The notes beneath the pieces were generated by a model, which saw nothing but the letters and a program-made list of their open reading frames with translations, was not told the DNA's origin and did no database searches. Of a stretch of 64,000 nucleotides of DNA, positions 3,854 through 22,319 are shown piece by piece. The stretch covers positions 1 to 64,000 of the forward strand of contig UCOA01000001.1 of NCBI GenBank assembly GCA_900474095.1, given 5' to 3'. Made by a program: the position numbers and the translations under genes. This DNA is from Hyphomicrobiales bacterium (lineage in GTDB: Bacteria > Pseudomonadota > Alphaproteobacteria > Rhizobiales > Rhizobiaceae). Every line of letters starts with the position of its first letter. The stretch's first letter is position 1.

Positions 3854-5308
3854 ATGCGCATAGCCGTCGGGGGCATCCATACCGAGTGCAGCACCTATTC
3901 GCCCGTCCTGATGACAGTCGAGGATTTTCGCGTCCTTCGCGACGCCGACCTGCTCGGTGCTGAATATTTCAATTTTCTCGATGCAGACGGCGTCGAGCAT
4001 GTGCCTCTCCTGCACGCCCGCGCGATACCTGGGGGACCAGTGTCGCAACAAGCCTACCAGACCTTCAAGGTCGAGTTCCTTGCACGGCTTGAGGCGGCCT
4101 TGCCGATCGACGGCCTCTACCTTGCGATGCATGGCGCGATGAACGTCGAGGGCATGGACGACGCAGAGGGTGACTGGATTTCTGCCGCGCGCGGGATCGT
4201 CGGACCCGATTGCCCGGTCGCCGCGAGTTATGACCTGCACGGCAACGTCAGCCAGAGGATCATCGATCAGCTTGATATCTTCGCCGCCTATCGCACTGCG
4301 CCCCATATCGATGTTCGCGAGACCATGATGCGCGCCTGGTCGATGTTGATCGATACGCTGCGCACCGGCCGGCGCCCGGGTGTCGCCTGGGCCAAGGTGC
4401 CTGTCCTGCTACCGGGCGAATGCACCTCGACGGAGGACGAGCCGGCCAAGTCAATCTATCTCGGGCTTTCAGCTTTCGACGCGAAACCGGGTGTCCTCGA
4501 TGCCAACCTGATGATTGGCTATGTCTGGGCCGATGAGCCAAGGGCAACGGCCTGTGCGGTGGTCACCGGCGTAGACAAGGCCAGTGTGCTGAACGCCGCC
4601 GAGGAGATTGCCCTCCGATACTGGAATGCACGAGAGCGTTTCGGCTTCGGGCCGCTGACCGGGCCACTGGAGGAGATGCTCGACATCGCCGAGAAGGCGA
4701 CCACATTCCCGGTCATTCTTGCCGATTCCGCCGACAATCCAACGGGCGGTGGTGTCGGCGACCGCGCTGATGTGTTGCGTGCGCTTCTTGCCCGCAGCTT
4801 TCAGGGCGCCCTCATCGCCGGCATCACCGATCGGTCGGCCGTCGAAGCCTGCTTTGCCGCCGGCGAGGGGGCCTCGATCGCGCTTCGTCTGGGCGGCAGT
4901 CTCGATCCGGCCAGCGTTCCAGCTGACGTCATGGCAACCGTCATTCGCCTCGACGACCAGGCGTCTGCGGCCGAGCGCCAGGCTCTGGTGCGTGTCGCTG
5001 ACATCGAGATCGTGCTTTCAGCGCGCCGCCGTCCCTACCACAATATTCAGGACTTCCAGCGGCTGGGGCTTGATCCGACGGCTGTGCGGCTCTTGGTGGT
5101 GAAGTCCGGCTATCTGTCGCCGGAACTGGCGCCGATCGCCAATCCGAACCTGATGGCGTTGACCGAGGGCGTCGTCAATCAGGACATTGCCAATCTCGCG
5201 AGCAACCGACGAGCAAGGCCGGTGTTTCCCTTCGACCGGAATTTCGAATTTACGCCGCAAGCCAGACTTTCGGCGCGTTGGGATGCTTTGGCAGTCTCGC
5301 CGGACTGA
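3854..5308 (+). CDS. M81 family metallopeptidase-like protein (MlrC/DUF1485)
   Basis: A 484-residue protein starting at 'MRIAVGGIHTECSTYSP', the conserved beginning of the M81 (microcystinase C-like) domain, which spans about residues 1-290. The MlrC C-terminal domain follows (about 300-470, with 'ILADSADNPTGGGVGD'). HTE, 'AMHGAM' and 'DLHGN' are likely metal-site residues. MlrC cleaves linear peptides from microcystin degradation, but most rhizobial homologues have no known substrate. Beside GH20, RidA-like and SDR genes, a role in processing a peptide or amide linked to an amino sugar is possible. The start lies 22 bases after the GH20 stop. Confidence 0.82.
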   Translation: MRIAVGGIHTECSTYSPVLMTVEDFRVLRDADLLGAEYFNFLDADGVEHVPLLHARAIPGGPVSQQAYQTFKVEFLARLEAALPIDGLYLAMHGAMNVEGMDDAEGDWISAARGIVGPDCPVAASYDLHGNVSQRIIDQLDIFAAYRTAPHIDVRETMMRAWSMLIDTLRTGRRPGVAWAKVPVLLPGECTSTEDEPAKSIYLGLSAFDAKPGVLDANLMIGYVWADEPRATACAVVTGVDKASVLNAAEEIALRYWNARERFGFGPLTGPLEEMLDIAEKATTFPVILADSADNPTGGGVGDRADVLRALLARSFQGALIAGITDRSAVEACFAAGEGASIALRLGGSLDPASVPADVMATVIRLDDQASAAERQALVRVADIEIVLSARRRPYHNIQDFQRLGLDPTAVRLLVVKSGYLSPELAPIANPNLMALTEGVVNQDIANLASNRRARPVFPFDRNFEFTPQARLSARWDALAVSPD

Positions 5309-5400
5309 GCCGAACGACAACCACGCAATCCGATATCCGCACAATCCGTCAATTCGTGCCCGTGAGGGTGACCATTGATCTCTCTCCTGGTGTCTGCGTC

Positions 5401-6612
5401 ATGACCTCCATGCTGTTGATCGCCTTCCGCCACCCTGTGGTCAGGTTGAGCATGATCGCGATCTTTTTATTCGGATTCACGGGTGCGGCGACGTCGCCCT
5501 ACCAGTCGGTCATCGGCATCACCGAGCTGGGGCTGAGCGACGGCTTCTACTCGATCCTGATTTTCGCCGCCGCTGCAGTCAATGTCGCCGCCAGCCTCTG
5601 GGTTGGCGTGCTCGCAGACAGGATCGGCAACTATCGGATCCTGCTCATGACCGTCATGATGTTCGGCGTTGTCGGCTACGGCCTGGTCTATGCCGTGCCG
5701 GTGGCAGTGAGCTTCGTCATCTGCACGCTGGTTATCTTGCCGGTTTACAACGCAATGAACTCGCTTTTGTTTGCCAATGTCTGCGCGGTCGCCAATGCCT
5801 CGGGCGGGCGCGACGCTGCCGCGATCAATTCGGGCGTTCGTGCGGCGATTTCGGTCGCCTGGGTGCTGGTGCCAGGTCTTGTCGCGCTCGTACTGGCAGG
5901 CAGCGGCAGCATGCTGCCTGCCTATCTGCTTGCCTGCCTCGGCTGTACCGCCAATCTTGCGCTGGTCTATTTCAAGCTGCCGGCTGGCGGTGCGCCGCCG
6001 CCGATCAGTCACCGCCATTCCTACCTTGCCTCCTTCACCGAAGTTCTCTCGCCAAAGGTGTTTGCGAGGTTGATGGCTGTCTCCCTGATCACCTCGACGC
6101 TGCATGTGAACGCGGCTGTCCAGCCGCTGATCATCACCGGTGCGGTGGGCGGCAAGGTCACCGATATCGGTGCCGTCGTCGGGATTGTCGCCTTTCTCGA
6201 AATCGTCTTCATCTTCGTCTGGGCACGCATCCAGCTTCACCTGCACCCGGTAACGGCGCTTGCGGCCGCCACGGTGTTCTATGTGGTCTATCTGGCATTG
6301 CTCGGCTTTTCGTCCGCGCCCTGGCAGATTTATGCCCTGACGCCGCTCAGCGCATTCGCAGCCGCGGCGCTGATCAGCATTCCGATAACCTATATCCAGG
6401 ACCTGATCGCCGACCGTCCGGGGCTTGGAAGCTCGCTTATTTCAGTCAACCTGTTCTTGAGCGGCGGGCTTAGCGCCGTCCTGTTCGCGCTTGGAACCCG
6501 GTTCAGCGACTATTCGGGAACGTCGCTGCTCGGTGCGCTTGCCGGCATGCTGGGCTTGGCGTTGCTCATCTATCTCGACGGCCGTCACCCGGCGCGGCCG
6601 TCGGCATGCTGA
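5401..6612 (+). CDS. MFS transporter, sugar efflux (SET) family-like
   Basis: A 403-residue membrane protein with about 12 hydrophobic segments. 'TSPYQSVIGITELGLSDGFYS' and 'GVLADRIGNYR' resemble the SetA/SotB sugar efflux group of the major facilitator superfamily. The start at 5401 is a choice: GTG 5368 is in frame, and neither has a strong ribosome site. It closes the RpiR-SDR-GH20-M81 run. Its last 28 bases overlap the convergent adenylation-acyltransferase gene. It could import as well as export sugars; direction is not evident from sequence. Confidence 0.8.
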   Translation: MTSMLLIAFRHPVVRLSMIAIFLFGFTGAATSPYQSVIGITELGLSDGFYSILIFAAAAVNVAASLWVGVLADRIGNYRILLMTVMMFGVVGYGLVYAVPVAVSFVICTLVILPVYNAMNSLLFANVCAVANASGGRDAAAINSGVRAAISVAWVLVPGLVALVLAGSGSMLPAYLLACLGCTANLALVYFKLPAGGAPPPISHRHSYLASFTEVLSPKVFARLMAVSLITSTLHVNAAVQPLIITGAVGGKVTDIGAVVGIVAFLEIVFIFVWARIQLHLHPVTALAAATVFYVVYLALLGFSSAPWQIYALTPLSAFAAAALISIPITYIQDLIADRPGLGSSLISVNLFLSGGLSAVLFALGTRFSDYSGTSLLGALAGMLGLALLIYLDGRHPARPSAC

Positions 6613-9233
6613 GCCGTTTGGCGAAAATCGACGGCGACCGGGTGGTCCCGGCGAAGTGCAGTGATTGTCATCCTGAATGGAAGATCGCGGTGTTTGGAGA
6701 GGAACGACAACGCCTGCTTCTGCGCCCACCATGCGATGACCCCCAAGGCCACGCCCCCGACAATGGCGAGCACGGAAAAAACCGGCAGCGGGATTTTCCC
6801 GGAGAGCGGAAGCAGAAGCAGTTCGGGCATGAAGCGATGGAGGAGGTAGATGTGAAAACTCGCGGCGGAAACGGGCAGGACCAGCGCTTTCACCGCTCGC
6901 GGCACCGATAGTCTCGGCACGAACAGGAGCAGCGCGAGTACAGGGATTTGCAGGAAATATTTGACCCGGGTGCCGATCCAGACGCTTTCGTAGAACGCAA
7001 AGAAGCTGAAGACGACCGTGCCCGCCGCCATCAGCAACAGCCGCTTTGCCGTGGTATCCGCAAATGCCGCCAGAAAACCGATGGCGGCGAGATAGAGAAT
7101 CCACGGCAACGTGAAAATCTGCCGGTTTCCAATCTGCCAGATGTCGGGGATGACCAGGCGGGCAAGCAGCGCGACACCCAATAATACCAGCCCCGCAGAG
7201 AACGGTGACGATGCGGCTATCTTTCGAATGGGGGCAAGCGCAAAGAAACCGGCAAACAGCAGAAGCGTTTGGCAGTAGGCTTCGACGAACCAATAGAGGT
7301 AGGGTAGCATGGTGTGTCGATCGGGATCGGCAAAGCCGAAATTACCGGCCATGACGACGGACGCCCACGGCACCTCACCCCAGGCGACCGTGTAGCCAGC
7401 GACGATAAGATAGTAGGGGATCACGATCGGAAGCGCGGAGCGGAACAGGCGGACGATATCGAGTTCGGTCACAGCGCGCCATTGAAAGCGGGCGAGTCCG
7501 AAGCCGACAAGCAGGACCATTGCGGCGGAGCCGCCTGGAATCGGCCAGAGCGTCTCGTGCTGGACCACGACGAAGAGGATGGCAAGCGCCCGGATGAGAA
7601 GGCTGGCCTCCAGTTTGGGCGCTGTTTCAGTGCGCTTGACCTTGCCGGCCAGTACGGAAACGGCAAGCTTTTCCCAATTCGGCGGCGCTTCACCGAGGAT
7701 GCGCTCCAGCGCGATCGAAAGCTGTACGAAGCGTAGCGAATCCCCACCCAGCGACAGAAAACTATCCTGCGGGCCGACCCGTGTTGGGTAGAATAGCTGA
7801 GCGAAGACGCTCTGGACGGTTTCTTGCCGGCTTTCGTTTTCCGTGCTCGTCACGGCAAATTGCTGCGTTAGGCGGCCGTAGTCGATCTTGCCCGAGGAAA
7901 GGCGCGGTAAATCCGCATGCGGCGTGGCCCCGACCTGAAGCAAGGTCAGACCGCTTGCCGCTGACAGAATGTGTTTGACACTGGTCTCGCTGGCAGAACC
8001 GGTGCAATAGGCGTGGATCGACCGGTCGTCACCAATGACGGCAGCGCTGATCCCATATTTCTCAAGCGTCGCCTCCATCGCATCATGGCTGATCCTCAGA
8101 CCTGCGATCTTGGAAATACGCTTCAGGCGCCCGCAGATGCGGAACAGTCCCTCATCGTCGATCTCGGCGAGGTCGCCCGTTTTCAGGCAGTCGAGTTCAT
8201 GGCCATGCGTCAGTTCGCGGCGCGAACTTGCATATCCCATCATGACATTGGGACCGCGATAGACGAGTTCGCCGGGCCGTGCCGGTGAGACGATCGTTCT
8301 TCCCGTTTCATCCTCGAGCGTCAGCGTCCCGCCGGGAACGGCGATGCCGATCCGGTCCTCGTTTCCCTCAAGTCGGTCCGGTGGCACATAGGCTAGCCGC
8401 GCGGTGCCTTCCGTCTGGCCATACATTATGAAAAAAGCGCCGCCGTTTTCGCGCATACAATGATTGTAGCTGCGGATGATATCTGGCGAGAGCCGGCCGC
8501 CGGCGACTGTCATGAAGCGCAGGGATGATGGGAGCCTGCTGCGGAGATCAATGCTCTCCAGAAGCTCGTAGGAATAGGGCACGCCGGAAAAATTCGTGCA
8601 TCCGGACTGTTCCAGCCGATGGTGGAATTGCGGATCCGATAGCGACATTTTCGGAAAATAGAGGCTAGCACCGACCGAAAGATGTGAATGCAGAACGGAC
8701 AATCCGTAGCAATAGTGCAGTGGCAGCGCCATGCAGCCGCGATCGGTTGCCGACAGGCCGAGATATTGGGCTATCGACGCCGCATTGGCGTCTAGGTTCC
8801 CGGCGGAGAGCCTCACGGCCTTGGCACGGCCCGTGCTTCCGGATGTCATCAGCAGCAGCGCCAGATCGGGATGTGGTGGAATGCCGTGATGGTCGCGGCT
8901 GCAAAGAGGCTTGATCGACCTCCAGCGCCCGTCGATCTGCCGGCAGGTGATGTCGGGCGCAAATGCTTCTTCGATGACGGTTCCCCGCGCCTTATCGGTC
9001 GGTGGGATCATGATTACGGCATGGCCGGACTGAAGGGCCGCGAGGTAGCCGATGATTGCATGCTCGGTATGCGACGCTTCCACGCCGACCAGCATCTTCT
9101 GCAGGCCGAACGCCGTGGATGTCTGACTGACACGATCAGCCAGTTCCTTGTATGTGATCGGGTCGCGGTCTGGAAAAAGCAGCGCAGGCGCATCGCCCCA
9201 ATTTGCCAGCGCGGACGTAAAGAGCGGTGCCAT
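6585..9233 (-). CDS. Adenylation domain - carrier protein - acyltransferase-3 membrane fusion
   Basis: An 882-residue three-part protein. Residues ~1-455 are an ANL adenylation enzyme: TSGSTGRAK at 130-138, YGQTEGT at 271-277, KTGD at 351-354 and the catalytic Lys449 in SSGK. Residues ~465-530 form a carrier domain whose LGGDSL (495-500) has Ser499 as the expected phosphopantetheine site. From ~545 there are about ten membrane segments beginning 'IRALAILFVVVQHE', the acyltransferase-3 signature with candidate catalytic His559, and ending near 'FHIYLLHRFMPE'. Known parts suggest that an acid is activated, loaded on the carrier, then transferred at the membrane. No condensation or thioesterase domain is visible. 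It is divergent from an iron transporter, so a siderophore, lipid or glycan tailoring role is possible. Substrate unknown. Confidence 0.85.
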   Translation of the reverse strand: MAPLFTSALANWGDAPALLFPDRDPITYKELADRVSQTSTAFGLQKMLVGVEASHTEHAIIGYLAALQSGHAVIMIPPTDKARGTVIEEAFAPDITCRQIDGRWRSIKPLCSRDHHGIPPHPDLALLLMTSGSTGRAKAVRLSAGNLDANAASIAQYLGLSATDRGCMALPLHYCYGLSVLHSHLSVGASLYFPKMSLSDPQFHHRLEQSGCTNFSGVPYSYELLESIDLRSRLPSSLRFMTVAGGRLSPDIIRSYNHCMRENGGAFFIMYGQTEGTARLAYVPPDRLEGNEDRIGIAVPGGTLTLEDETGRTIVSPARPGELVYRGPNVMMGYASSRRELTHGHELDCLKTGDLAEIDDEGLFRICGRLKRISKIAGLRISHDAMEATLEKYGISAAVIGDDRSIHAYCTGSASETSVKHILSAASGLTLLQVGATPHADLPRLSSGKIDYGRLTQQFAVTSTENESRQETVQSVFAQLFYPTRVGPQDSFLSLGGDSLRFVQLSIALERILGEAPPNWEKLAVSVLAGKVKRTETAPKLEASLLIRALAILFVVVQHETLWPIPGGSAAMVLLVGFGLARFQWRAVTELDIVRLFRSALPIVIPYYLIVAGYTVAWGEVPWASVVMAGNFGFADPDRHTMLPYLYWFVEAYCQTLLLFAGFFALAPIRKIAASSPFSAGLVLLGVALLARLVIPDIWQIGNRQIFTLPWILYLAAIGFLAAFADTTAKRLLLMAAGTVVFSFFAFYESVWIGTRVKYFLQIPVLALLLFVPRLSVPRAVKALVLPVSAASFHIYLLHRFMPELLLLPLSGKIPLPVFSVLAIVGGVALGVIAWWAQKQALSFLSKHRDLPFRMTITALRRDHPVAVDFRQTAQHADGRAG

Positions 9234-9290
9234 GGTGTGCGATCTTGACGGAATAGGAAGAGAAGTTGGATAGGCTCCCTATGAAATGCA

Positions 9291-9305
9291 TGATTGCTAT
9301 TGTCA
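9291..9305. promoter_or_regulatory. IRO-like iron-responsive box (TGA-N9-TCA)
   Basis: The palindromic core TGA-ttgctattg-TCA lies in the 145-base divergent region between the adenylation fusion and the iron ABC transporter. In rhizobia TGA-N9-TCA is the IRO motif bound by the iron regulator RirA. The six fixed bases can occur by chance, but the position beside an Fbp-type transporter supports the call. Confidence 0.45.
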
Positions 9306-9378
9306 AGTTATTGACGGGCGCTTAGGTGTTTTCGGAGAAACGACCCTTGGTGCGTGGAGCCGAAAGACGGAGGAGAGA

Positions 9379-10434
9379 TTGATCCCGGCAGCAAAAAATC
9401 CTGCGCTTGAACTCCGCCATGTAAGCCGCCGGTTTGGGGCAACCGTTGCACTCGACGACGTGTCGCTGGCGATCGGCTCCGGCGAGATCATCTGTCTCGT
9501 CGGCCGTTCCGGTTGCGGGAAATCGACATTGCTGAGAATGATCGCAGGCGTTGATACGATCGATGCTGGCCTTATCCTGCTGAGCGGAGACGAAGTTTCG
9601 GGGCCTTCAGCGTTCGTGGAGCCGGAGGACCGCAAGATCGGTTTTGTTTTCCAGGACTACGCTCTCTTTCCTCATCTGACTGTTGAGCAGAACATCCTGT
9701 TCGGTCTCAAGGGCCGGCCGAAAGAGACTGTCGCTGACAGGGTAGCCGAAATTCTTGATCATATCGGCATAGAGCATCTGAGAACGCGGTATCCGCACAT
9801 GCTGTCGGGCGGCGAACAGCAACGTGCTGCTCTGGCCCGCGCCTTGGCGCCCCGGCCGCATATCTTGTTGATGGACGAGCCGTTTTCCAACCTGGATCGC
9901 GGCCTGCGGGACAGGGTTCGCGACGAAACGCTTTCGCTTCTGAAAAATCTCGGCACGACGGTCGTCATGGTCACTCATGACCCGGAAGAAGCCCTTTCGG
10001 CGGGCGACAGGGTTGTCTTGATGAGGGCCGGCCGGATCGTCCAGACCGGGTCTGGCTATGACCTGCACGACCGGCCCGTGAACCCCTATGCCGCTGAGTT
10101 CTTCTGCGCCTTCAACAAGGTTCCCGGCGTCTACCGCCAAGGTTATGTCGAAACTGCGATTGGCCGGTTTGCGCACAGGCTGGATCTCAACGAAGACAGC
10201 CCCGCCACACTCTACATCCGCCCGCAGGGAATTTCGCTGTCGCGTGAGCCCGCCGATCTTTGCGGGCGCGTGCATAGCCGTGTGTTCCTAGGTGACGTGG
10301 AACAGCTCGCCGTCAAGGTGGAGGGTTTGGAACAGCCGCTTCTGGTTCGAACGATGCAGCGTCTGGCGGCCGGCACGGACACAGTCGGTTTGGTTATCTC
10401 GCCGGAGAGCTGCCTGGCATTCGCGGCTGAATGA
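9379..10434 (+). CDS. Fe(3+)-type ABC transporter ATP-binding protein (FbpC-like)
   Basis: A 351-residue ATPase. Walker A GRSGCGKST, signature LSGGEQQR, Walker B ILLMDEP and the switch VTHD are all present, with a C-terminal TOBE-like region typical of FbpC/PotA-type importers. TTG 9379 is chosen because GGAGG sits five bases upstream; an ATG at 9286 lies upstream of the IRO-like box and has no ribosome site. It is the first gene of ATPase, binding protein, permease. The ATPase powers uptake at the inner membrane. Iron as substrate is inferred from the binding protein. Confidence 0.88.
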   Translation: MIPAAKNPALELRHVSRRFGATVALDDVSLAIGSGEIICLVGRSGCGKSTLLRMIAGVDTIDAGLILLSGDEVSGPSAFVEPEDRKIGFVFQDYALFPHLTVEQNILFGLKGRPKETVADRVAEILDHIGIEHLRTRYPHMLSGGEQQRAALARALAPRPHILLMDEPFSNLDRGLRDRVRDETLSLLKNLGTTVVMVTHDPEEALSAGDRVVLMRAGRIVQTGSGYDLHDRPVNPYAAEFFCAFNKVPGVYRQGYVETAIGRFAHRLDLNEDSPATLYIRPQGISLSREPADLCGRVHSRVFLGDVEQLAVKVEGLEQPLLVRTMQRLAAGTDTVGLVISPESCLAFAAE

Positions 10435-10556
10435 GCAGGGACTGGCGGGCCGGCATCAGGCCCGAGCGATCATTTACGGTAAAGTCCTCTTGCTAAACTT
10501 GACCTTCCTACTCCAATAATGCTCGACAGCATGAAACAGTTCTTCTGGAGGATAAA

Positions 10557-11579
10557 GTGACCACGTTGACCATCGCAAAATCCGTACTGCTTTCTACCAC
10601 CTTGCTGCTCAGCACGGGTGCCGCGTCGGCCGCGGAGCTCAATATCTACACCACGCGCGAGCCTGGCCTGATCCAGCCGCTGCTGGACGCCTTCACCGCA
10701 GCAACTGGAACCAAAGTCAACACGGTCTTCCTCAAGGATGGCTTGGTCGAGCGTCTCGCGGCCGAGGGCGAAAGCTCGCCGGCCGATATCCTGATGACCG
10801 TGGATGCGGGAAATCTCGTCGATCTGGTCGAGAAGGGCGTCACCCAGCCGGTGGAATCCACTGTCCTGACGGAATCCATTCCGCAGCAGTTGCGCGATGC
10901 AAAAGGCAACTGGTTTTCACTCTCCATGCGCGCCCGCGTCGTCTATGCGGCGAAGGATCTCGATCTTCAAGCCCTCAACTACGAAGACTTGGCCGATCCG
11001 AAATGGAAGGGCAAGATCTGCATTCGCTCGGGCCAGCATCCGTATAACACCGCACTCTTTGCCGACTACATCGCCCATCATGGCGCGGAAGAGACAGAGA
11101 AATGGCTCTCCGGCGTCAAGGATAACCTGGCCCGCAAGGCAGCCGGCGGCGACCGCGACGGCGCCAAGGATATTGCCGGCGGCATTTGCGATATCGCCAT
11201 TGCCAATTCCTACTATGTCGGCCTGATGCGCTCGGGCAAGGGCGGCGAGGAACAGGCAGCCTGGGGCAACGCCATCAAGGTCATCCTGCCGACTTTCAAG
11301 GACGGCGGGACGCAGGTCAACGTCAGCGGTGCGGCCGTCGCAAAACATGCGCCGAACAAGGCGGAGGCCGTAAAGCTGCTGGAGTACCTCGTGTCGGACG
11401 AGGCCCAGAAGATCTATGCCGAAGCGAATTTCGAGTATCCGGTGAAGCCCGGTGCCGTAGCCGACCCTATCATTGCATCCTTCGGTGAACTGAAGATTGA
11501 TCCCAAACCTTTGACGGAAATCGTCAGCCATCGTAAGCAGGCAAGCGAACTGGTCGACAAGGTCGGCTTCGACAACTGA
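10557..11579 (+). CDS. Fe(3+) ABC transporter substrate-binding protein (FbpA/FutA-like)
   Basis: A 340-residue periplasmic protein with GTG start 10557 preceded by GGAGG. The N-terminus is a signal peptide ending at an Ala-rich site (ASAAE near residue 25). The mature protein starts ELNIYTTREP, the usual opening of class II iron-binding proteins, and contains NSYYVG, the paired tyrosines that bind ferric iron in FbpA/FutA. It sits 122 bases after the ATPase and 65 before the permease, with a hairpin on the permease side. Iron specificity is well supported by the Tyr pair but not proven. Confidence 0.9.
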   Translation: MTTLTIAKSVLLSTTLLLSTGAASAAELNIYTTREPGLIQPLLDAFTAATGTKVNTVFLKDGLVERLAAEGESSPADILMTVDAGNLVDLVEKGVTQPVESTVLTESIPQQLRDAKGNWFSLSMRARVVYAAKDLDLQALNYEDLADPKWKGKICIRSGQHPYNTALFADYIAHHGAEETEKWLSGVKDNLARKAAGGDRDGAKDIAGGICDIAIANSYYVGLMRSGKGGEEQAAWGNAIKVILPTFKDGGTQVNVSGAAVAKHAPNKAEAVKLLEYLVSDEAQKIYAEANFEYPVKPGAVADPIIASFGELKIDPKPLTEIVSHRKQASELVDKVGFDN

Positions 11580-11591
11580 AAACAGCAAGGG

Positions 11592-11610
11592 GCCCGCAGT
11601 GAATGCGGGC
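11592..11610 (+). terminator. Intercistronic stem-loop after the iron-binding protein gene
   Basis: GCCCGC-agtgaat-GCGGGC forms a 6-bp stem just after the binding-protein stop. No T-run follows, so it is more likely an attenuating or RNA-stabilising hairpin that keeps binding-protein mRNA above permease mRNA than a full terminator. Confidence 0.5.
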
Positions 11611-11644
11611 GCCTTCCTGTCGCCGACGAAATGGATTGTCCTTG

Positions 11645-13306
11645 ATGACCAGCGCCGCACGAAGCCGGCACCGGCGCTCCACTGGGTCCAGGTGGCTGGT
11701 CTGCGCGGGCACCATTGCCGGTTTCGTCCTGCTGCCGTTCCTGGCGCTGTTGCTGCAGGCGGTGCAGGGATCCGCGGGACTGTGGTCTCATCTCATCTCC
11801 ACCGTTCTGCCTGTTGCCTTGAGAGATACGGTTATCCTTCTCTCCGGTGTCGGCCTGATCGCTGCCGTTGTCGGAACGACGACGGCCTGGCTTGTCACCG
11901 CCTACACCTTTCCGGGGCGGCGGGCGCTCGAATGGGCGCTGCTGCTGCCTCTTGCGGTGCCGACCTATATCATCGCCTATGCCTATCTCGACATCCTGCA
12001 TCCGATAGGGCCCGTGCAGGGGGCAGTGCGATGGCTGCTTGGCTATTCCAGCCCAAGAGAATTTCGCCTGCCGGATTTGCGCTCGATGACGGGCTGCATC
12101 CTGCTTCTCGGTTTTGTGCTCTATCCTTATGTCTACATTCCGGTGCGGGCGATGTTTCTGACGCAGTCCGCCAATCTGATAGAAGCTGCAAGAACACTCG
12201 GCATTCCCCGGCGCGCGATCTTCTGGCGCGTTGCCCTGCCGCTGGCGCGGCCCGCGGTTGCTGTCGGCGTCAGTCTCGCGCTGATGGAAGCGCTCAACGA
12301 TATCGGCGCCTCCGAGTTTCTCGGCGTCAGGACCCTGACCGTGTCGATCTATACCACCTGGGTCACCCGGTCCGATCTGCCGGGGGCAGCACAGATCGCT
12401 TTGGCGTTGCTTGCGATCGTCGTCGTTCTGGTGGCGTCGGAACGATGGGCAAGAGGAAAGCAGCGCTACTCGTCAAGCGCGCAGCGCAATCGCGCCTTCG
12501 AACCCCGCCGCGTTTCTCCGGCAAAAGGGCTGCTCCTGTTTGCCACAGGGCTTTTGCCCATTCTTGTGGGCTTCGCAGCTCCGGCGGCCTATCTCGTCGT
12601 CGAAGCCTGGAAAAGAGTAGAGTTTGCAGGGCTTTCGCCGCGGTTCCTCATCGAAGCTGTCAACACGATCGGCCTGGCGTCCTTTGCGACAGTCATGACG
12701 ATCCTTTCCGGCCTGCTTGTCGCTTATGCCGGCCGTCTGCGTCCCGGTGCGGCATCGGCGTGGTTTCTCCGGCTCTCGACGCTCGGCTACGCCGCTCCCG
12801 GTACGGTCGTCGCGATCGGAATCCTCATCGTTCTTGGGACATTTGACCGCCTCATCGATCGCACGGCGACTTCCTGGTTCGGCATCTCAACCGGCTTGGT
12901 GGTGATGGGTTCGAGCGCAGCGCTGCTCTATGCCTACACGGTGCGCTTTCTTGCCATCTCGGCGGGCGGCATAGAGGCGGGGCTTTCACGCATTCCCCTC
13001 TCCTTCGATCATGCTGCCCGGACCTTGGGTCAGTCGAAGACAGGTACTTTCCGGTATATCCATCTGCCGCTGTCGAAGGCAGCGATCACGGCTGCCGGCT
13101 TGCTGGTATTCGTCGATTGCGTCAAGGAGCTTCCCGCCACACTTTTACTGCGCCCGCTGAACGTCGAGACCTTCGCCACGCATCTCTATGGCGAGGCGGC
13201 GAGGGGCACCTATGAGGAGGCGTCCATCGCTGCTCTCGCCATTGTCGCCATCGGCATCCTGCCCGTCATCCTGCTGGCAAGGCTTGGTCGCGTCTCAAGC
13301 CCTTGA
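11645..13306 (+). CDS. Fe(3+) ABC transporter permease, fused double permease (FbpB-like)
   Basis: A 553-residue inner-membrane protein made of two binding-protein-dependent permease halves, each with about six membrane segments and an EAA-type loop ('EAARTLGIPRRAIFWRVALPLARP' in the first half, 'DHAARTLGQSKTGTFRYIHLPL' in the second). This duplicated arrangement is standard for FbpB/AfuB/SfuB. The start at 11645 lacks a strong ribosome site; an in-frame ATG at 11603 lies inside the preceding stem-loop. It completes the iron transporter and is convergent with the glutaredoxin/MauE gene 13 bases away. Confidence 0.88.
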   Translation: MTSAARSRHRRSTGSRWLVCAGTIAGFVLLPFLALLLQAVQGSAGLWSHLISTVLPVALRDTVILLSGVGLIAAVVGTTTAWLVTAYTFPGRRALEWALLLPLAVPTYIIAYAYLDILHPIGPVQGAVRWLLGYSSPREFRLPDLRSMTGCILLLGFVLYPYVYIPVRAMFLTQSANLIEAARTLGIPRRAIFWRVALPLARPAVAVGVSLALMEALNDIGASEFLGVRTLTVSIYTTWVTRSDLPGAAQIALALLAIVVVLVASERWARGKQRYSSSAQRNRAFEPRRVSPAKGLLLFATGLLPILVGFAAPAAYLVVEAWKRVEFAGLSPRFLIEAVNTIGLASFATVMTILSGLLVAYAGRLRPGAASAWFLRLSTLGYAAPGTVVAIGILIVLGTFDRLIDRTATSWFGISTGLVVMGSSAALLYAYTVRFLAISAGGIEAGLSRIPLSFDHAARTLGQSKTGTFRYIHLPLSKAAITAAGLLVFVDCVKELPATLLLRPLNVETFATHLYGEAARGTYEEASIAALAIVAIGILPVILLARLGRVSSP

Positions 13307-13319
13307 CGCGCGCCCATGC

Positions 13320-14099
13320 CTACATGGCATGGTCGGCGCCGTTGCCAGACAGCATTGCCGCCAGCATCCAGAGCGCCATGGCGACCATCATCAGGTTCTC
13401 GGTCAAGGAAACAAAACCGAGCGGTACGTTGCTGTCACCACCGACACAGGCGCATTTGAGCTCGCGCTTGTCGATATAGACCGCCTTGAATACCGAGACG
13501 GCCCCGATCGCGCCGATGAACAGCGCGACAGGAATCGAAATCCAGTTGAGGACACCGGCAATCATCAGGATACCCGCGCCGGCTTCCGCGAAGGGATAGA
13601 CATAGCTGTAGCGGACAAAGCGCTTTGCCAGCAGGTCGTAGTTGAGGAACATCGTCGAGAAACCCTCGATATTCTGAAGCTTCAAAATGGCAAGCACCGC
13701 CATCGTGAACGCGATGAACCACTCGGCCGCACGCACCGTGAATACGTCGCCATAGGCGGCATAGCTTGCGGCGAGCGCCATCAGGGCCGTGACGGCAAAC
13801 ACGGCGATGACGGGGCGATAGGTGACGGCTTTCGGATCGCGAACCGGTTTTCCAAGATGCTGGCGCACGTTGTCATAGCCGCCGATGCGCACGCCATTGA
13901 TGAAGGTTTGAGGGGTGGTCTTGACATTGTGCTCGGCCTTGAATGCGTCGGTTTCCTCGCGCGTGGTCAGCCACCGGTCGTCAACGGTATAACCTTCGCG
14001 CTGCAAGAGATCCTTGGTCTTCAGGCCATAGGGGCAGGTGTGGTTGTCCATGACCATCCGGTAGAGGGTGGCTTTTCTGGATAAGTGGTCAAGCATCAT
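13320..14099 (-). CDS. Glutaredoxin-MauE/DoxX-like membrane fusion protein
   Basis: A 259-residue protein. Residues ~1-80 are a glutaredoxin fold with a single-cysteine CPYG motif ('HTCPYGLKTK') plus TTPQTFI and GGYDN, the glutathione-binding segments. Residues ~85-255 carry about four to five hydrophobic segments like the MauE/DoxX redox membrane family, with a CACVGG motif near 'KRELKCACVGGDSN'. ATG 14099 is preferred because GAGAG lies upstream on the minus strand; 14111 is also in frame. It is divergent from a MerR regulator and transcribed from a mer-like promoter, which suggests induction by a metal or thiol stress. It may relay reductant across the membrane; substrate unknown. Confidence 0.78.
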   Translation of the reverse strand: MMLDHLSRKATLYRMVMDNHTCPYGLKTKDLLQREGYTVDDRWLTTREETDAFKAEHNVKTTPQTFINGVRIGGYDNVRQHLGKPVRDPKAVTYRPVIAVFAVTALMALAASYAAYGDVFTVRAAEWFIAFTMAVLAILKLQNIEGFSTMFLNYDLLAKRFVRYSYVYPFAEAGAGILMIAGVLNWISIPVALFIGAIGAVSVFKAVYIDKRELKCACVGGDSNVPLGFVSLTENLMMVAMALWMLAAMLSGNGADHAM

Positions 14100-14137
14100 G
14101 CAATCTCTCATTTCGCTTGGTTGGATCGATTGCTGGT

Positions 14138-14169
14138 ACTATAACATCCGTACCATGGTACGGAGTCAA
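14138..14169 (-). promoter_or_regulatory. MerR-type promoter/operator for the glutaredoxin-MauE gene
   Basis: Read on the minus strand: TTGACT (14164-14169), a 20-base spacer, then TATAGT (14138-14143); reading TTATAG instead gives 19 bases. The spacer contains the perfect 16-base dyad CCGTACCATGGTACGG (14148-14163). Over-long spacers carrying a dyad are the hallmark of MerR-activated promoters, and this dyad closely resembles the classic mer operator. Confidence 0.85.
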
Positions 14170-14172
14170 GCG

Positions 14173-14580
14173 ATGAAGAACATGACGATCGCGGGGCTTG
14201 CCCGCGAAGGCGGTGTCGGCGTCGAAACGGTCCGCTATTACCAGCGGCGAGGGCTGATCGGCACACCGGAGCGGACCGGCGGCCCCGGTCTCGGCGGCGG
14301 TATTCGACACTATAGCGAAGAGGATATCCGCCGCCTGCGCTTTATCCGTTCGGCCCAGACTGCGGGTTTTACCCTCGAGCAGATCGGAGAATTGCTGGAA
14401 CTGGACGCAAGCGAGGACCGCGTACGCGCCCGCGCCCTTGCCGCGGAGCGCATCGCGGCGCTCGACGCGAAGATCGCCGAACTGCAGACAGCGCGAGACT
14501 CGCTTCGCCGGCTCGCCCATGCCTGCAGCGCCACCTCAAATGGTCCGTGCCCCATCATTTCGGCCTTCGATCGCGAGTGA
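14173..14580 (+). CDS. MerR family transcriptional regulator
   Basis: A 135-residue regulator with an N-terminal MerR winged helix ('TIAGLAREGGVGVETVRYYQ'), a dimerisation helix, and a C-terminal HACSATSNGPCP segment. In mercury MerR the ligands are three cysteines. Here the C-terminal pair is present (seven residues apart rather than eight), but the Cys82-equivalent region reads LLELDASEDR with no Cys. A different metal, or a thiol signal, is therefore possible. ATG 14173 is chosen because an upstream ATG lies inside the operator dyad and CGGAG precedes 14173. It is divergent from its presumed target. Confidence 0.85.
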   Translation: MKNMTIAGLAREGGVGVETVRYYQRRGLIGTPERTGGPGLGGGIRHYSEEDIRRLRFIRSAQTAGFTLEQIGELLELDASEDRVRARALAAERIAALDAKIAELQTARDSLRRLAHACSATSNGPCPIISAFDRE

Positions 14581-17870: not shown

Positions 17871-18956
17871 TCAGCCAGCCGTTTTCGCGATGAACTGGAG
17901 GTCGACGAACTGCACGCCGCGGGCAGCTGTTCGTGCCCATTCGGAATCGTTGTCGAGTTCAAGATAGCGTGCCCACCGGCGTCGCGCCTCGCTGAGATTG
18001 CCGGCATCGAATTCAAGTTTCGCCAGATTGAAGATGGCATCCGCGTAGTCGCCGTCGAGTTCGATCGCCCTTTGCAGGTGCCGGCGAGCCGCATCGTTCC
18101 GCCCGCGATCGCCCATAAGCCCGGCAAGGTTGAACCACGCCTCGACGAACGTCGGGTCGAGCTTGATCGCGCGCGCATACTCATGCGCAGCCTCAAGCGG
18201 CCGGCCACCCGCCTTGAGGCAATTTGCGCGATTGAACGCAGCGACGGAATCGGTGGGGTCAATGGCAAGGCAACGTTGATAGAAGGCGGCAGCCTCGTCG
18301 TACAGACCGTCCTCCTCGGCGGCCTCGGCCCGAGAGAAGAGGTCTTCAAGCTCGGCGTCGTCGGGCACTTCCAGATCGAATAGCAATTGGCCGTCGAGTT
18401 CGCTCAAACCCTCGGCATCACGGACATAAATCGTATCCGAACCTTCGTGATGGAGCGACAGCGCCGTGAGCGAGGCCACCGAACGGGAGCGGCATACGGA
18501 CCTTGCGATCGCACACCAGGTAGCGCCGCTGGCAATCAGGCCAGCGTACTTCCTTGCAAGAATGAGATCTCGGAAGGAGTAGGGCTCCGCGGCGTGCTCG
18601 AAGGCATCGAACAGAGAAAGGAAATCAAAGATCCGCGCAGACAGCCGCGATTGGTCGATCAGGGCCTGCCGTGTCAGGGCGGATGCGGCGGGGGATGCCA
18701 TCAAACCCAGCAACCGAAGAAATCCGTTCTCGCTAAGGAAGCATCTGCCGTGGCCGGTCTCCCTATCGAACCGCGCTTCGATCTCGGCTTCACTTGCCTT
18801 CGTCAGCAAACCCCTGCCGAAGACCAGATGCGAGGTCCGGCGCGTTACACCGCGTCTCAAGTGTCCGTGCTGCCGTTCGACCTCCCGCGCCGCCAACCGT
18901 CGCGGGAATGCGGCCAGAGCGCCTACGATGCCGAATGTCTGGCCAGAAACCGTCAT
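17871..18956 (-). CDS. BRCT - MerR-like winged helix - TPR protein in the NHEJ cluster
   Basis: A 361-residue protein. Residues ~3-85 read like a BRCT domain: 'FGIVGALAAFPRRLAAREV', 'VTRRTSHLVFG' and the closing 'FLSENGFLRLLGL'. Residues ~125-195 ('YSFRDLILARKYAGLIASG' onward) resemble a MerR-type winged helix. From ~205 there are three to four TPR units ('AAAFYQRCLAIDP', 'AHEYARAIKLDPTFVEAWFNLA', 'ARRHLQRAIELDGDYADAIFNLA'). BRCT and TPR are protein-interaction modules. Its ATG overlaps the ku stop (TGATG), so it is made with Ku. I infer an adaptor for end joining; no function is known to me. Confidence 0.72.
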   Translation of the reverse strand: MTVSGQTFGIVGALAAFPRRLAAREVERQHGHLRRGVTRRTSHLVFGRGLLTKASEAEIEARFDRETGHGRCFLSENGFLRLLGLMASPAASALTRQALIDQSRLSARIFDFLSLFDAFEHAAEPYSFRDLILARKYAGLIASGATWCAIARSVCRSRSVASLTALSLHHEGSDTIYVRDAEGLSELDGQLLFDLEVPDDAELEDLFSRAEAAEEDGLYDEAAAFYQRCLAIDPTDSVAAFNRANCLKAGGRPLEAAHEYARAIKLDPTFVEAWFNLAGLMGDRGRNDAARRHLQRAIELDGDYADAIFNLAKLEFDAGNLSEARRRWARYLELDNDSEWARTAARGVQFVDLQFIAKTAG

Positions 18957-19831
18957 CAGATTTTCGTCTTGGCAGCGGGCTTGGCCGTTGCCGAAGCGAC
19001 GGCCTTCGCCGCTGGCTTGGCGGCGGGCTCCGCCTTGCTCTTGCTCTTGGCCGGCGGTTTCGATTGCGAAAGGCTCGCCTTCAAGGCGTCCATGAGGTTG
19101 ATGACATTGCCGCGCTCCGGAGCCGCCGCAATGATCGGCTTGTGCCCCTTGAGTTTCTCGCGGATCATCTGCATCAGCGCCGCCTCGTAGCGATCCTCGT
19201 AGTTCCTGGGATCGAAGGTGGTCAGCTTCTGCTGGATGAGCGCTTCGGCGAGTTGAAGCATCTCAGGATCGGGGTTTCCGACCGGGATATTACCGAAATA
19301 CTCCGCTGTGCCGCGCACCTCGCTGGGATTTCTCAGCGTGCAGACGAACATGCCGGTCTCGCGCGCGCCGATGGTGATCACCCGCTCGCGGCTGGACAGC
19401 ACAAGGCGCGCGATCGCCAACTTGCCGGATTTCCGAAGCGCCTCGCGCAGCACGACGAACGTCTCCTCGGCCATCGCTCCGTCCGGTGCCAGATAATAGG
19501 GAGCATCCAGGTAGATGACATCGACCGATCGTTCGTCGACGAACGCCTCAATGTTCATCGTGTGGTTGGATTCAATCCTGACGCTCTCAAGATCGGCGTC
19601 GTCGATGATGATGTATTTCTTGTCCTCGTACTCGTAGCCTTTTACCAGGTCGGACCGTTCGACAAGGCCGAGTTCCGGGTCGACCGGCTTCATGTTGATC
19701 CGGTTGTGGGTATCCTTGTGAAGCTGGTTGAAGCTGATGCGCTCGCTCGAACTGGTGGCGGGATAGAGCCGGACCGGGCAGCTCACGAGACTGAGTTTGA
19801 GGTAACCTTTCCAACTTGCCCTGGGCGCCAT
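18956..19831 (-). CDS. ku: Ku protein (bacterial NHEJ end-binding)
   Basis: A 291-residue bacterial Ku beginning 'MAPRASWKGYLKLSLVSCPVRL' with the conserved core 'FNQLHKDTHNRI' and 'EYEDKKYIIIDDADLE'. The homodimer threads onto DNA ends and recruits LigD. The last ~35 residues are a Lys/Ala/Pro-rich tail, the kind that aids DNA binding or LigD contact in other Ku proteins. AGGAG precedes the ATG by eight bases. It starts 25 bases after the ligD stop and its stop overlaps the next gene, forming a tight operon. Confidence 0.95.
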   Translation of the reverse strand: MAPRASWKGYLKLSLVSCPVRLYPATSSSERISFNQLHKDTHNRINMKPVDPELGLVERSDLVKGYEYEDKKYIIIDDADLESVRIESNHTMNIEAFVDERSVDVIYLDAPYYLAPDGAMAEETFVVLREALRKSGKLAIARLVLSSRERVITIGARETGMFVCTLRNPSEVRGTAEYFGNIPVGNPDPEMLQLAEALIQQKLTTFDPRNYEDRYEAALMQMIREKLKGHKPIIAAAPERGNVINLMDALKASLSQSKPPAKSKSKAEPAAKPAAKAVASATAKPAAKTKI

Positions 19832-19856
19832 GATCATCTCCTGCGCGGCGACGCGA

Positions 19857-22319
19857 TTACTTTCCAACCCGAGACAACAACGGCAAATCTCTGGCCAATT
19901 TGTCGATATCGGACCAGGGATCACCGGAAGTGGCCAAGAGGCCTGGCAAAGAAGAATAGTTCAAATCCTCCGGAGCGTCGATAGCTTCAAGATCGCTCCA
20001 GCTCACGGGGGTCGACGCAGGCAGGTTGGAGCGTGCGCGAAGCGAATAGGGAGCGGCAGACGTTTGCCCGCGAGCGTTGCGATGAAAGTCGATGAAAATG
20101 CGCCGTACCCGATTATCCTTGCCCATGGTTGTGGTGAACGTCTGCGGAGCAGTCTGGGCCAGGCGAGCGGCAATGGCGCTTGTCGCCGGATGCACTTTCT
20201 TCCAGGGAAGCTTTGGCGTGACAGGCACGACCACGTGGATACCCTTGCCGCCCGACGTCTTGACGAACGGGGCAAGACCAAGCGCCTCGAGTTCACTGCG
20301 GATATGGAGGGCCGCCTCGACGACGTCCTGCCAGCCAATGCCCTCGCCGGGATCGAGGTCGAAAACGATGCGGTCGGGCTTTTCCGGTTGCTTTCGAGTT
20401 GTCCCCCAGGTGTGGAATTCGACGACCCCGAATTGGGCCAGCGCGAGAAACCCTCTTGCGTCTTCCACCGAGAGGTAGGCTTTCGTTTCGCCGTCGGAAT
20501 TGGTGGTTGCGAATGTCGCCATAGAGGATGGCATGCCAGTGAAGGGATGGCGCTGGAAGAAGCAGTCCCGCGGTTTTCCCGTTGGGCAGCGGAACAGCGA
20601 GACCGGGCGGCCGAGAATATGCGGCAGCATGAAATCGCCGACCAGGGCATAGTAGACCGCAATATCGAGCTTCGTCGGGCCGGATTTTCCGAACAGTCGG
20701 CGCGTCGGGTTGGTAACGGAGATGCTTGCAAGATCGGCATCCGAGATCAATCGCTCGCGCCGGGCCGAAACCGGGGTGGATAGCTCGACATCGCGAAGCC
20801 CCTTGAAAACGGCGTGGCGAAGCGCATTGTCGGCCGTGCGGTTGGCATAGTGAATATGCGCCGAGAGCACCGGCCGGACCCAAGTGACGTCCTTTGGCCC
20901 ACCCTCGAGTTTGATTGCGCCAGCGCGCAGCGGCTCCAACCGCGCAAGCAATTGCTTGAGCATTACTGCGTCGAAGCCTGTTCCGACCTTGCCGCGATAC
21001 TCCAGTTCGCCATCCACCCATTCGCCGAGCGCCAGCGCGGCAAGACCTTTGGCAGCCTCGGAGAGGGTGTATCCGGCAATCACGAAGTCACCAGCTTCCA
21101 GAGCCTTGGTCTTGGTCCAGGTTTTCGACCGGCCACTGCGGTAGGGAGCCGATAGGCGCTTCGACACGATGCCCTCGAGCCCCATTTCCGAGGCCTGCTC
21201 GTAGAGTGCACGCCCATCGCCCACGACATGATCGCTGAGTTGAATGGCGGAGTGGCTGGATATGTGCCCCTCGAGCAGTTTTGCCAGCAGCATCTTCCGC
21301 TTTTCGAGCGGAACATTGGTAAGATTCCAACCGTCGAGGAAAAGGAGATCGAAGGCATAGAATACAAGCCTGTTGCCTGCGCCATTTGCGAGGGCGCCCT
21401 GCAGCAGCGCGAACCGGCTGATCCCTTCGTCATCCAACACAACGATTTCACCGTCGATGATGGCGTCGCGGATCGGCAGCTGCCGGAATGCTTCCGGAAG
21501 GTCACCATAGCGCTTGGTCCAGTCCAGGCCGCCGCGCGTAATCAAATGCACTGCACCGGCGGACACGTGCGCCATCGTCCGATAACCGTCGAACTTGATT
21601 TCGTGCAGCCAGATTTCGTGCCGGTCGGCACGGCCTGGCGGTATGGCTGTCTGTGTCGCAAGCTGTGGTGCGATGCGTGCCGGTGCCTCGCCTCTCACTG
21701 CGCCGGGAAGCGCCCCTGGCTGGAGCTTGGCCGGCTTTCTTGTCTTCTTGGGTTTTTCCACCAGTTCCTCGATCCGCCGGCCGGATTTAACGCTTTCCGG
21801 GCGCGCGGCGAGGATGTCGACTGAGTCGTTCGAAGCGAGATCATGCTCCTTGAACAGGAGCCAGTTGCCCTGGTCATCGTCCCCTGGCCTGGGCTTCAGT
21901 CGCGCCAGCATCCAGCCGCCACTGAGTTTTTCGCCGGCAAGCCGGAACTTGAAGGCGCCTGTCTTCAAGCTTTTCTCGACATCGTCCATCGGCGCCCAGA
22001 CGCCGGCATCCCAGACGATGACCGGGCCGGCGCCGTATTCGCCCTCGGGGATCACGCCCTCGAAGTCGATATATTCGAGCGGATGATCCTCGGTCTCGAC
22101 CGCCAGCCGCTTGTCCACTGGATTGAGCGATGGCCCCTTCGGGACGGCCCAACTCTTCAGCACGCCGCCGATCTGAAGCCTCAGATCGTAGTGATCGGCG
22201 GTGGCATGATGCTTGTGCACGACAAAACGGTTGCCGCCGCCGGCGAGACTTCCAACCGGTTCCTGCGTCTTCGAAAAGTCCCGCTTCTTTCGATAGGCCG
22301 TCAGTTTGGATGTCGCCAT
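19857..22319 (-). CDS. ligD: ATP-dependent DNA ligase D (phosphoesterase-ligase-polymerase)
   Basis: An 820-residue multidomain NHEJ enzyme in the order PE-Lig-Pol. Residues ~35-160 are the 3'-phosphoesterase ('HHATADHYDLRLQ'). The ligase domain has the nucleotidyl-acceptor Lys242 in EIKFDGYR. The polymerase/primase domain (~535-810) carries 'FDLDPGEG' with the metal-binding Asp pair and 'SGGKGIHVVVP'. It trims, fills and seals broken ends together with Ku. The length matches rhizobial and Pseudomonas LigD. It is the first gene of the minus-strand cluster that continues with ku. Confidence 0.95.
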   Translation of the reverse strand: MATSKLTAYRKKRDFSKTQEPVGSLAGGGNRFVVHKHHATADHYDLRLQIGGVLKSWAVPKGPSLNPVDKRLAVETEDHPLEYIDFEGVIPEGEYGAGPVIVWDAGVWAPMDDVEKSLKTGAFKFRLAGEKLSGGWMLARLKPRPGDDDQGNWLLFKEHDLASNDSVDILAARPESVKSGRRIEELVEKPKKTRKPAKLQPGALPGAVRGEAPARIAPQLATQTAIPPGRADRHEIWLHEIKFDGYRTMAHVSAGAVHLITRGGLDWTKRYGDLPEAFRQLPIRDAIIDGEIVVLDDEGISRFALLQGALANGAGNRLVFYAFDLLFLDGWNLTNVPLEKRKMLLAKLLEGHISSHSAIQLSDHVVGDGRALYEQASEMGLEGIVSKRLSAPYRSGRSKTWTKTKALEAGDFVIAGYTLSEAAKGLAALALGEWVDGELEYRGKVGTGFDAVMLKQLLARLEPLRAGAIKLEGGPKDVTWVRPVLSAHIHYANRTADNALRHAVFKGLRDVELSTPVSARRERLISDADLASISVTNPTRRLFGKSGPTKLDIAVYYALVGDFMLPHILGRPVSLFRCPTGKPRDCFFQRHPFTGMPSSMATFATTNSDGETKAYLSVEDARGFLALAQFGVVEFHTWGTTRKQPEKPDRIVFDLDPGEGIGWQDVVEAALHIRSELEALGLAPFVKTSGGKGIHVVVPVTPKLPWKKVHPATSAIAARLAQTAPQTFTTTMGKDNRVRRIFIDFHRNARGQTSAAPYSLRARSNLPASTPVSWSDLEAIDAPEDLNYSSLPGLLATSGDPWSDIDKLARDLPLLSRVGK

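Follow-up and report, generated by a model that had tools for sequence, protein, structure and literature searches.

In the Dlt system, which carries out the D-alanylation of teichoic acids, DltB is an MBOAT acyltransferase and DltD is its partner. Fbp-type ferric importers are widespread, the Tyr-Tyr residues of their FbpA-type binding proteins are iron ligands, and the supply of ferric iron to them outside host-transferrin settings is often unclear. The acyltransferase-3 (AT3) proteins form one superfamily, TmAT, with HGSNAT and GWT1 (PMC12423673), and an R-x10-H motif in the first transmembrane helix defines the AT3 hallmark (PMC9833829). In the present study, we analysed a window of 64,000 nucleotides (nt), that is, the whole stretch of DNA at positions 1 to 64,000 of contig UCOA01000001.1 (assembly GCA_900474095.1, a Hyphomicrobiales bacterium of the Rhizobiaceae). 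At 6585-9233 on the minus strand, this window encodes a single protein of 882 amino acids (aa) with an ANL adenylation domain, a carrier domain and a probable AT3/TmAT membrane domain, and the genes of an Fbp-type ferric importer diverge from it. Herein, we propose that this protein is an iron-starvation-induced, one-polypeptide transmembrane acylation enzyme serving ferric iron uptake, a reading to which we assign a probability of about 0.6. A sequence-only reading of the same DNA had suggested, from one neighbour, a link to iron or to envelope tailoring; the iron part is now well supported by importer linkage in four arrangements, predicted regulator boxes in two phyla, gene co-occurrence and one transcriptome with a presumed orthologue, and envelope tailoring remains as a rival.

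The adenylation-carrier-membrane protein

The open reading frame (ORF) runs from 9233 down to 6585 on the minus strand and opens with ATG, as judged from the ORF list, Pfam and the relatives of the protein. The adenylation domain (residues about 1-455; 7869-9233) matches AMP-binding PF00501 with E 7.2e-43 and is also placed by model and PDB matches. It carries the catalytic K449 (codon 7887-7889) and the pocket residue R279 (codon 8397-8399), and the core ANL motifs, namely the TSGSTG motif, D354 and K449, are invariant or nearly so in 58 aligned relatives. The carrier domain (residues about 465-530; 7644-7841) matches PP-binding PF00550 with E 5.6e-05 and 23.7 bits against a cut-off of 20.8, and contains an invariant (D/N)S(L) serine, Ser499 (codon 7737-7739), which is the predicted attachment residue for a phosphopantetheine arm. 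The C-terminal part of about 350 residues is a membrane domain, in which the AT3/TmAT assignment covers residues about 535-850 (6684-7631) and takes in R548, H559 (codon 7557-7559), R595xxR598 and H799. Across the 58 relatives, K449, D354, R279, S499 and H559 are all invariant, and R548 is kept in at least 90%. The AlphaFold2 model of the whole chain has a mean predicted local distance difference test (pLDDT) score of 87. AMP-binding and PP-binding were the only Pfam matches above threshold in the 882-aa protein, and neither a condensation nor a thioesterase domain, one or both of which would mark a siderophore synthetase of the nonribosomal peptide synthetase (NRPS) type, was found. The sequence-only reading had described this single protein correctly, including the numbering of Ser499 and His559 and the lack of condensation and thioesterase domains, and its expectation that an acid would be activated and then transferred at the membrane agrees with domains whose catalytic residues are invariant.

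Relatives are widely distributed. Within the same family, 41 of 394 genomes match at E<=1e-60; in 36 of the 41 the match extends along most of the protein, with one internal stop in two of them. GTDB genomes hold at least 80 loci with relatives, and the three-part gene is considered real and not a chance product. In the same genus, 10 of 26 genomes match at E<=1e-100. Three-part relatives occur in Rhizobiales, Rhodobacterales, some Gammaproteobacteria and many Actinobacteria, and the best 80 GTDB loci include Rhizobiales, Rhodobacterales, sphingomonads, Marinobacterium and Methylococcaceae as well as the actinobacterial Mycolicibacterium, Nocardioides, Microbacterium, Agromyces and Parafrankia. 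At E<=1e-100, matches were obtained in 16 of 396 genomes of an actinobacterial phylum sample and in 52 of 251 genomes of the Mycolicibacterium stellerae family sample. Among plasmids, 112 records match at E<=1e-30, 80 of them with one place covering at least 80% of the query, and Rhizobium is the commonest name (56 of 112). Before the relatives were analysed, L001, L006 and L008 (the window itself, a near-duplicate and an over-long one) and the fragments L062, L066, L067 and L073 were left out, and the 58-relative alignment also omits L092, L110, L111, L112 and L114. Tandem paralogues of the three-domain enzyme were observed at 7461-10061 and 10131-12728 of L162 (genome G793) and on contig C138 of genome G820, with a further copy elsewhere in each genome.

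The AT3 identity of the membrane domain was supported in part. Pfam gave no match to PF01757 (Acyl_transf_3) with the whole 882-aa chain, and the C-terminal part alone scored 15.1 bits (E 0.013), below the cut-off of 31. The hallmark R-x10-H is present as R548/H559, R595xxR598 fits the second AT3 motif, which is not uniformly conserved among relatives, and 42 of 47 homologous C-terminal parts, the window's included, match PF01757 at E<=1 (best 6e-15). The model of the membrane part alone (mean pLDDT 89, predicted template modelling score 0.87) was matched by a second structural aligner to human HGSNAT (Z 14.0, root-mean-square deviation (rmsd) 4.9, 278 residues aligned) and to GWT1 (Z 10.2, rmsd 5.0, 255 residues; next row Z 6.1), where unrelated helical bundles reach Z up to about 13, a caution that covers GWT1 and not the best HGSNAT rows. 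AT3 structures themselves are absent from the list of this aligner, which carries no weight either way, and Foldseek gave no match below E 0.001 for the membrane part alone. Through the HGSNAT and GWT1 matches, the modelled membrane part shows the core TmAT fold, and the assignment of the C-terminal domain to AT3/TmAT is supported by motifs and model together.

The window protein's low PF01757 score would suit another explanation, namely a chance fusion of an ordinary acyl-CoA ligase with a membrane protein that is unrelated to it and takes no part in its chemistry. This is extremely improbable, given that proteins from two phyla keep the three-domain order along the entire chain, that S499 and H559 are invariant in the 58 relatives, and that in a sister group this adenylation-carrier part is combined, on the same logic, with an SGNH domain and with an MBOAT-type gene next to it. 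Four of the best 80 GTDB loci (L092, L111, L112 and L114) have another C-terminal third. In two of them, from Photobacterium (L092, 10001-14074) and Massilia (L112, 9923-14075), the chain joins the adenylation-carrier part to one transmembrane-like segment and an SGNH domain. The gene that follows encodes an MBOAT in Massilia (PF03062, E 9.3e-23) and, judged by eye, an MBOAT-type protein in Photobacterium. This layout is a putative fused Dlt-like arrangement that shares the adenylation family. With such a sister group, the family would therefore have swapped its membrane acyltransferase and kept activation and carrier in one chain.

Linkage to an Fbp-type ferric importer

The importer occupies about 9379-13306 of the plus strand, divergent from the enzyme gene, as the sequence-only reading had noted, and consists of an ATPase, an FbpA-type binding protein and a fused permease. 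The ORF of the ATPase gene (9379-10434) opens at 9286, and TTG at 9379 is the likely start, after a GGAGG-like site noted by eye and in agreement with the start of an orthologue. The ferric-binding protein (10557-11579) was identified by PDB sequence alignments with the iron-binding protein 1y9u (472 bits) and with FbpA 1q35 (302 bits), and its Tyr-Tyr motif is conserved. The permease (11603-13306) matches PF00528 in two stretches, and its orthologue is annotated 'iron ABC transporter permease'. The nearest NCBIfam names for the three subunits are mostly phosphonate or polyamine transporters, all under cut-off.

The same partnership was observed in distant genomes and in different orders. In Pararhizobium sp. 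A13, enzyme and importer are divergent in the same order as in the window. Plasmids of Mycolicibacterium crocinum and M. chubuense NBB4 carry a unit of binding protein, permease, ATPase and enzyme, and on plasmids of Rhodococcus opacus B4, R. gordoniae and R. fascians D188 the enzyme precedes the binding protein, permease and ATPase. The enzyme gene occurs without the importer in records from Pseudarthrobacter, Arthrobacter and Leisingera. When the importer is counted as a binding protein and a permease within 6.5 kb, it is present at 55 of 154 loci in a redundant set; this set and the 101-locus set used below hold repeats of the same locus, some with short flanks. After the removal of proteins shorter than 750 aa and of rows at least 85% identical (145 rows reduced to 116, still including L092, L111, L112 and L114), the neighbourhood comparison showed linkage in 46 of 116 non-redundant rows, with the importer in tandem upstream in 24, in tandem downstream in 10, convergent in 7 and divergent in 5. 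On the tree of these 116 rows, a quick tree in which long branches are present, a minimum of 24 arrangement changes is required. Linkage in four orders with 24 changes therefore suggests that the importer was either retained despite repeated rearrangement or re-acquired. The binding proteins of the window and M. crocinum are 28% identical, indicating that the paired importers come from different lineages.

Co-occurrence points in the same direction. Each of eight actinobacterial genomes checked has one binding protein of the M. crocinum subfamily, and in a larger sample two of the 67 genomes with this type hold two or three. Among 251 genomes, the M. crocinum-type binding protein (E<=1e-60) was detected in 31 of 52 enzyme carriers versus 36 of 199 non-carriers (Fisher p about 1e-8, kinship not corrected). 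In the phylum sample, it was present in 6 of 16 carriers and 0 of 380 others at E<=1e-100, and in 6 of 16 versus 27 of 380 at E<=1e-60 (p 9e-4).

These observations bear on a rival explanation, envelope tailoring in iron starvation, in which the acylation of a glycan or lipid would alter surface charge or permeability and iron would only time it. Consistent with this explanation, many copies of the enzyme gene (70 of 116 rows) have no linked importer, and AT3 proteins of known function are described as mostly acylating extracytoplasmic carbohydrates (PMC9558356). However, importer genes are the most frequent and close neighbours in the 40 largest neighbour clusters (median distance 1.1 kb for the permease and 2.6 kb for the binding protein), and the four-gene set of importer and enzyme stands as a unit on the Mycolicibacterium and Rhodococcus plasmids, so that we regard envelope tailoring as unlikely. 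Other partners suggested by the clustering, which was judged mostly by eye over the 40-45 largest clusters, were rejected, their clusters being either group-specific synteny (the Sinorhizobium chromosome, Mycolicibacterium, a seven-locus actinobacterial set) or generic families, such as SDR-like genes in 27 loci (median 7.2 kb away) and LysR-like genes in 10 loci. The MFS gene at 5278-6612, which adjoins the enzyme gene in the window, was also left outside the system, as it is beside the enzyme elsewhere in L035, L036 and L115 only and is far under the NCBIfam cut-off.

Several further features of these loci were noted. A second Fbp-type importer of the window genome lies on contigs C205 and C235 (L203 and L204) and shares 53-72% identity with those of M. 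crocinum and R. opacus. Its binding-protein gene is divided between the ends of two contigs, and L204 has a TGA-N9-TCA site at 373. In M. chubuense NBB4 (L121) and R. fascians D188 (L124), the four-gene iron unit adjoins genes for a P-type ATPase, a cadmium transporter and ArsR-type proteins. In the window, a glutaredoxin-MauE fusion with a MerR regulator alongside lies at 13320-14580, and minus-strand ORFs at 18956-22319 resemble, by eye, a Ku protein and a LigD-type ligase of end joining; in the Pararhizobium A13 locus, the annotation names a Ku protein at the corresponding end.

Predicted iron control and published expression

The divergent intergenic region contains a predicted RirA-type iron-responsive operator, TGATTGCTATTGTCA, at 9291-9305 (no strand assigned), which lies 58-72 nt before the enzyme start codon and overlaps a TTGACA-like hexamer. 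It has the form TGA-N9-TCA by which RirA operators are defined (PMC8822346, PMC6386902), the window genome encodes RirA (NF008886 equivalog, 293.8 bits, cut-off 193), and binding of RirA to this site is predicted. Of 19 non-redundant Rhizobiales upstreams, 11 contain such an operator, which begins 39-88 nt ahead of the called start codon. Random windows drawn from these loci gave a background of 6.5% (587 of 9000), and shuffling of the upstreams gave 4.0%; with redundant upstreams kept, one Rhodobacterales locus among them, the count was 45 of 60.

In actinobacterial relatives, a different type of box was observed. A scan for IdeR/DtxR-type boxes, accepting at least 14 of 19 matching positions in a zone that opens 350 nt ahead of the match start of the enzyme or binding-protein gene and closes 60 nt past it, found a box at 67 of 101 loci (repeats included), comprising 38 of 51 loci with a linked importer and 29 of 50 without. 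Altogether 87 matches were present in 1.9 Mb: 85 fell in these near zones, which cover about 3% of the sequence, and 2 elsewhere. With 20 permuted palindromes, the summed counts were 23 near and 91 far matches, and no single palindrome had more than 8 near matches. Genomes G405 and G820 have enzyme genes unlinked to the importer; the importer operon, at another place in each genome, carries a separate box (17 and 14 of 19, respectively). Most of the actinobacterial loci thus carry upstream a 19-bp box of the IdeR/DtxR type, and binding by IdeR is predicted.

Expression data are available for the presumed orthologue in Sinorhizobium meliloti, SMc00592, listed as 'Hypothetical, transmembrane protein'. 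The orthology is presumed because the gene of strain Ak57 sits three genes before ndk and ndk is SMc00595 (PMC2912261). In a published array, the M values of SMc00592 were -0.44, 1.47, 1.30 and -0.23, resembling those of hmuV (-0.06, 1.48, 1.53 and -0.12) and exbB (-0.54, 1.82, 1.55 and -0.01), and the gene tracks the hmu/fhu/exb genes; in the main text of that paper, it is named once, in Table 2, and many iron genes respond according to the authors (PMC2848241). SMb21432 was reported in the same work as a co-induced iron binding protein (PMC2848241); it was dropped as the S. meliloti partner, as a plasmid search with the M. crocinum-type binding protein returned 33 records and no S. meliloti pSymB.

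Proposed route and comparison with known systems

The features described above can be joined in a single route, of which the transfer from carrier to AT3, its direction, the kind of acid and the role in uptake are what we infer. First, the adenylation domain would activate a small carboxylic acid other than an ordinary amino acid (acid + ATP -> acyl-AMP). Second, the phosphopantetheine arm of the carrier, which belongs to the same polypeptide, would take up the acid in thioester linkage. Third, the carrier, in place of acyl-CoA, would offer the acyl group to the AT3/TmAT pore, from which it might be passed to a hydroxyl or amine of an extracytoplasmic acceptor, for example a glycan, a lipid or a small exported molecule. 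Finally, the product would help ferric iron to reach the FbpA-type binding protein and the importer that are often co-encoded.

Several observations weigh against this account. No importer lies within 6.5 kb in 70 of 116 rows, a count that includes loci cut by contig ends, and the Sinorhizobium, R. etli and Leisingera copies are among these rows. The M. crocinum-type binding-protein subfamily is absent from 21 of 52 carriers in one family; five of the 21 (G813, G836, G852, G977 and G986) have another Fbp-type importer beside the gene. The predicted control is also incomplete, since 8 of 19 Rhizobiales upstreams have no RirA operator and 34 of 101 actinobacterial loci have no IdeR/DtxR-type box, and the 19-bp sequence scanned for is what we take to be the IdeR/DtxR consensus. 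A scan of the upstreams of 20 proteobacterial copies outside Rhizobiales gave no convincing Fur-like box; L058 (4 of 200 shuffles as good) and L090 (2 of 200) alone stood out, which is too little for 20 tests, and Fur boxes were rejected as evidence. The array cited above compared a fadD mutant on swarm agar with broth or hard agar, and not iron levels (PMC2848241). The window genome has an IucA/IucC-type siderophore locus with two IucA/IucC-type genes, and therefore the enzyme is unlikely to be its only iron system. Moreover, iron regulation by itself is also compatible with an enzyme that remodels the envelope and plays no role in uptake.

The IucA/IucC-type genes are relevant to a further alternative, in which the enzyme would acylate a siderophore made by another locus during or after its export. 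A stand-alone adenylation relative (39% identity) near siderophore transport genes in R. leguminosarum would also agree with such siderophore tailoring. Nevertheless, the partner of the enzyme is an Fbp-type ferric importer and not a siderophore-type one, and no siderophore biosynthesis gene was recognised in the 40 largest neighbour clusters (by eye, with no profile scan), which makes this alternative distinctly improbable. The relative itself, at 8626-10008 of L196 (R. leguminosarum Gr 12/7), shares a cluster with genes for an acyl-CoA reductase and an acyl ligase, and FhuB and a TonB-dependent siderophore receptor are encoded nearby.

Returning to the proposed transmembrane acylation for ferric uptake, its weakest step is the choice of acid. 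The top-scoring PDB sequence match of the adenylation domain, and also of its A5 region alone, is VinN (3wvn). In VinN, Asp230 holds the amino group and Ser299/Arg331 hold the second carboxylate of 3-methylaspartate (PMC7756342, PMC12186527, PMC11253843). Arg331 aligns with the invariant Arg279 and Asp230 with Cys175, a position that is Cys or Ser in the 42 rows shown. The Asp that marks amino-acid adenylation by NRPS at the GrsA-235 position is therefore replaced, and an alpha-amino acid substrate is disfavoured. The fold is about equally near many ANL enzymes (Z 37.6-39.6 among the 50 entries listed) and therefore gives no pointer to the substrate. This pocket may suit an acid that has a second carboxylate and lacks an amine, malate and citrate being examples. 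No substrate-supply gene was recognised among the 40-45 largest neighbour clusters, which were mostly named by eye. As a tentative, more specific and less probable version, the enzyme might load an iron-binding hydroxy-di- or tricarboxylic acid (malate, citrate), with Arg279 holding the second carboxylate and Ser/Cys replacing the amine-binding Asp, and attach it across the membrane to a surface glycan, a lipid or a small polyol. The resulting tethered or exported ferric chelator would feed the FbpA-type importer, in other words, a four-gene siderophore system with no classical synthetase.

Compared with described systems, the closest in logic is DltABCD, in which an adenylation enzyme, a carrier and a membrane acyltransferase shift an activated acid from the cytoplasm to an outside acceptor, and the DltA structure 3e7w is among the fold matches of the adenylation domain. 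In contrast to DltABCD, the window system is all in one chain, has AT3/TmAT in place of the MBOAT DltB, has no DltD and is iron-linked; D-alanine is an unlikely substrate because there is no Asp at the amino-binding position. No MBOAT was found in the 882-aa protein or the eight neighbours scanned, and an unlinked MBOAT was not searched for. With the AT3/TmAT proteins OafB, OatA, HGSNAT and GWT1, the membrane domain shares R-x10-H, a many-helix membrane fold, RxxR and a predicted transmembrane acyl transfer, whereas known AT3 proteins are thought to use acyl-CoA (PMC9558356) and the probable donor here is the attached acyl-carrier. The AT3 fusions named in the available text of three papers are with SGNH, alanine racemase and eukaryotic NRF, with no adenylation-carrier fusion among them (PMC9833829, PMC9558356, PMC12423673). 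VinN, a beta-amino-acid adenylation enzyme, shares the arginine counterpart of R279; it differs at Cys175 and is a stand-alone protein that serves antibiotic synthesis. The linked importer resembles FbpABC-type importers in its binding protein (472 bits to 1y9u), ATPase and fused permease, and we know of no acyl-activating enzyme that is part of an Fbp-type importer.

A literature search for the architecture, alone or with iron terms, found no description, with slight coverage of subscription journals, and the statement of the sequence-only reading that no named pathway has this architecture agrees with it. Systems that hand an activated acid by way of a carrier to a membrane acyltransferase are known, and no description was found of a one-chain form with iron control and an importer partnership. 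A single iron-regulated enzyme travelling with Fbp-type importers in rhizobia, mycolicibacteria, rhodococci and nocardioids would fill a gap in ferric iron supply and would point to a new helper system for iron uptake across two distant bacterial groups. To our knowledge, it would also be without precedent among AT3 enzymes in having domains of its own for activating and carrying the acid, and would give a direct handle on how TmAT pores take donors other than acyl-CoA.

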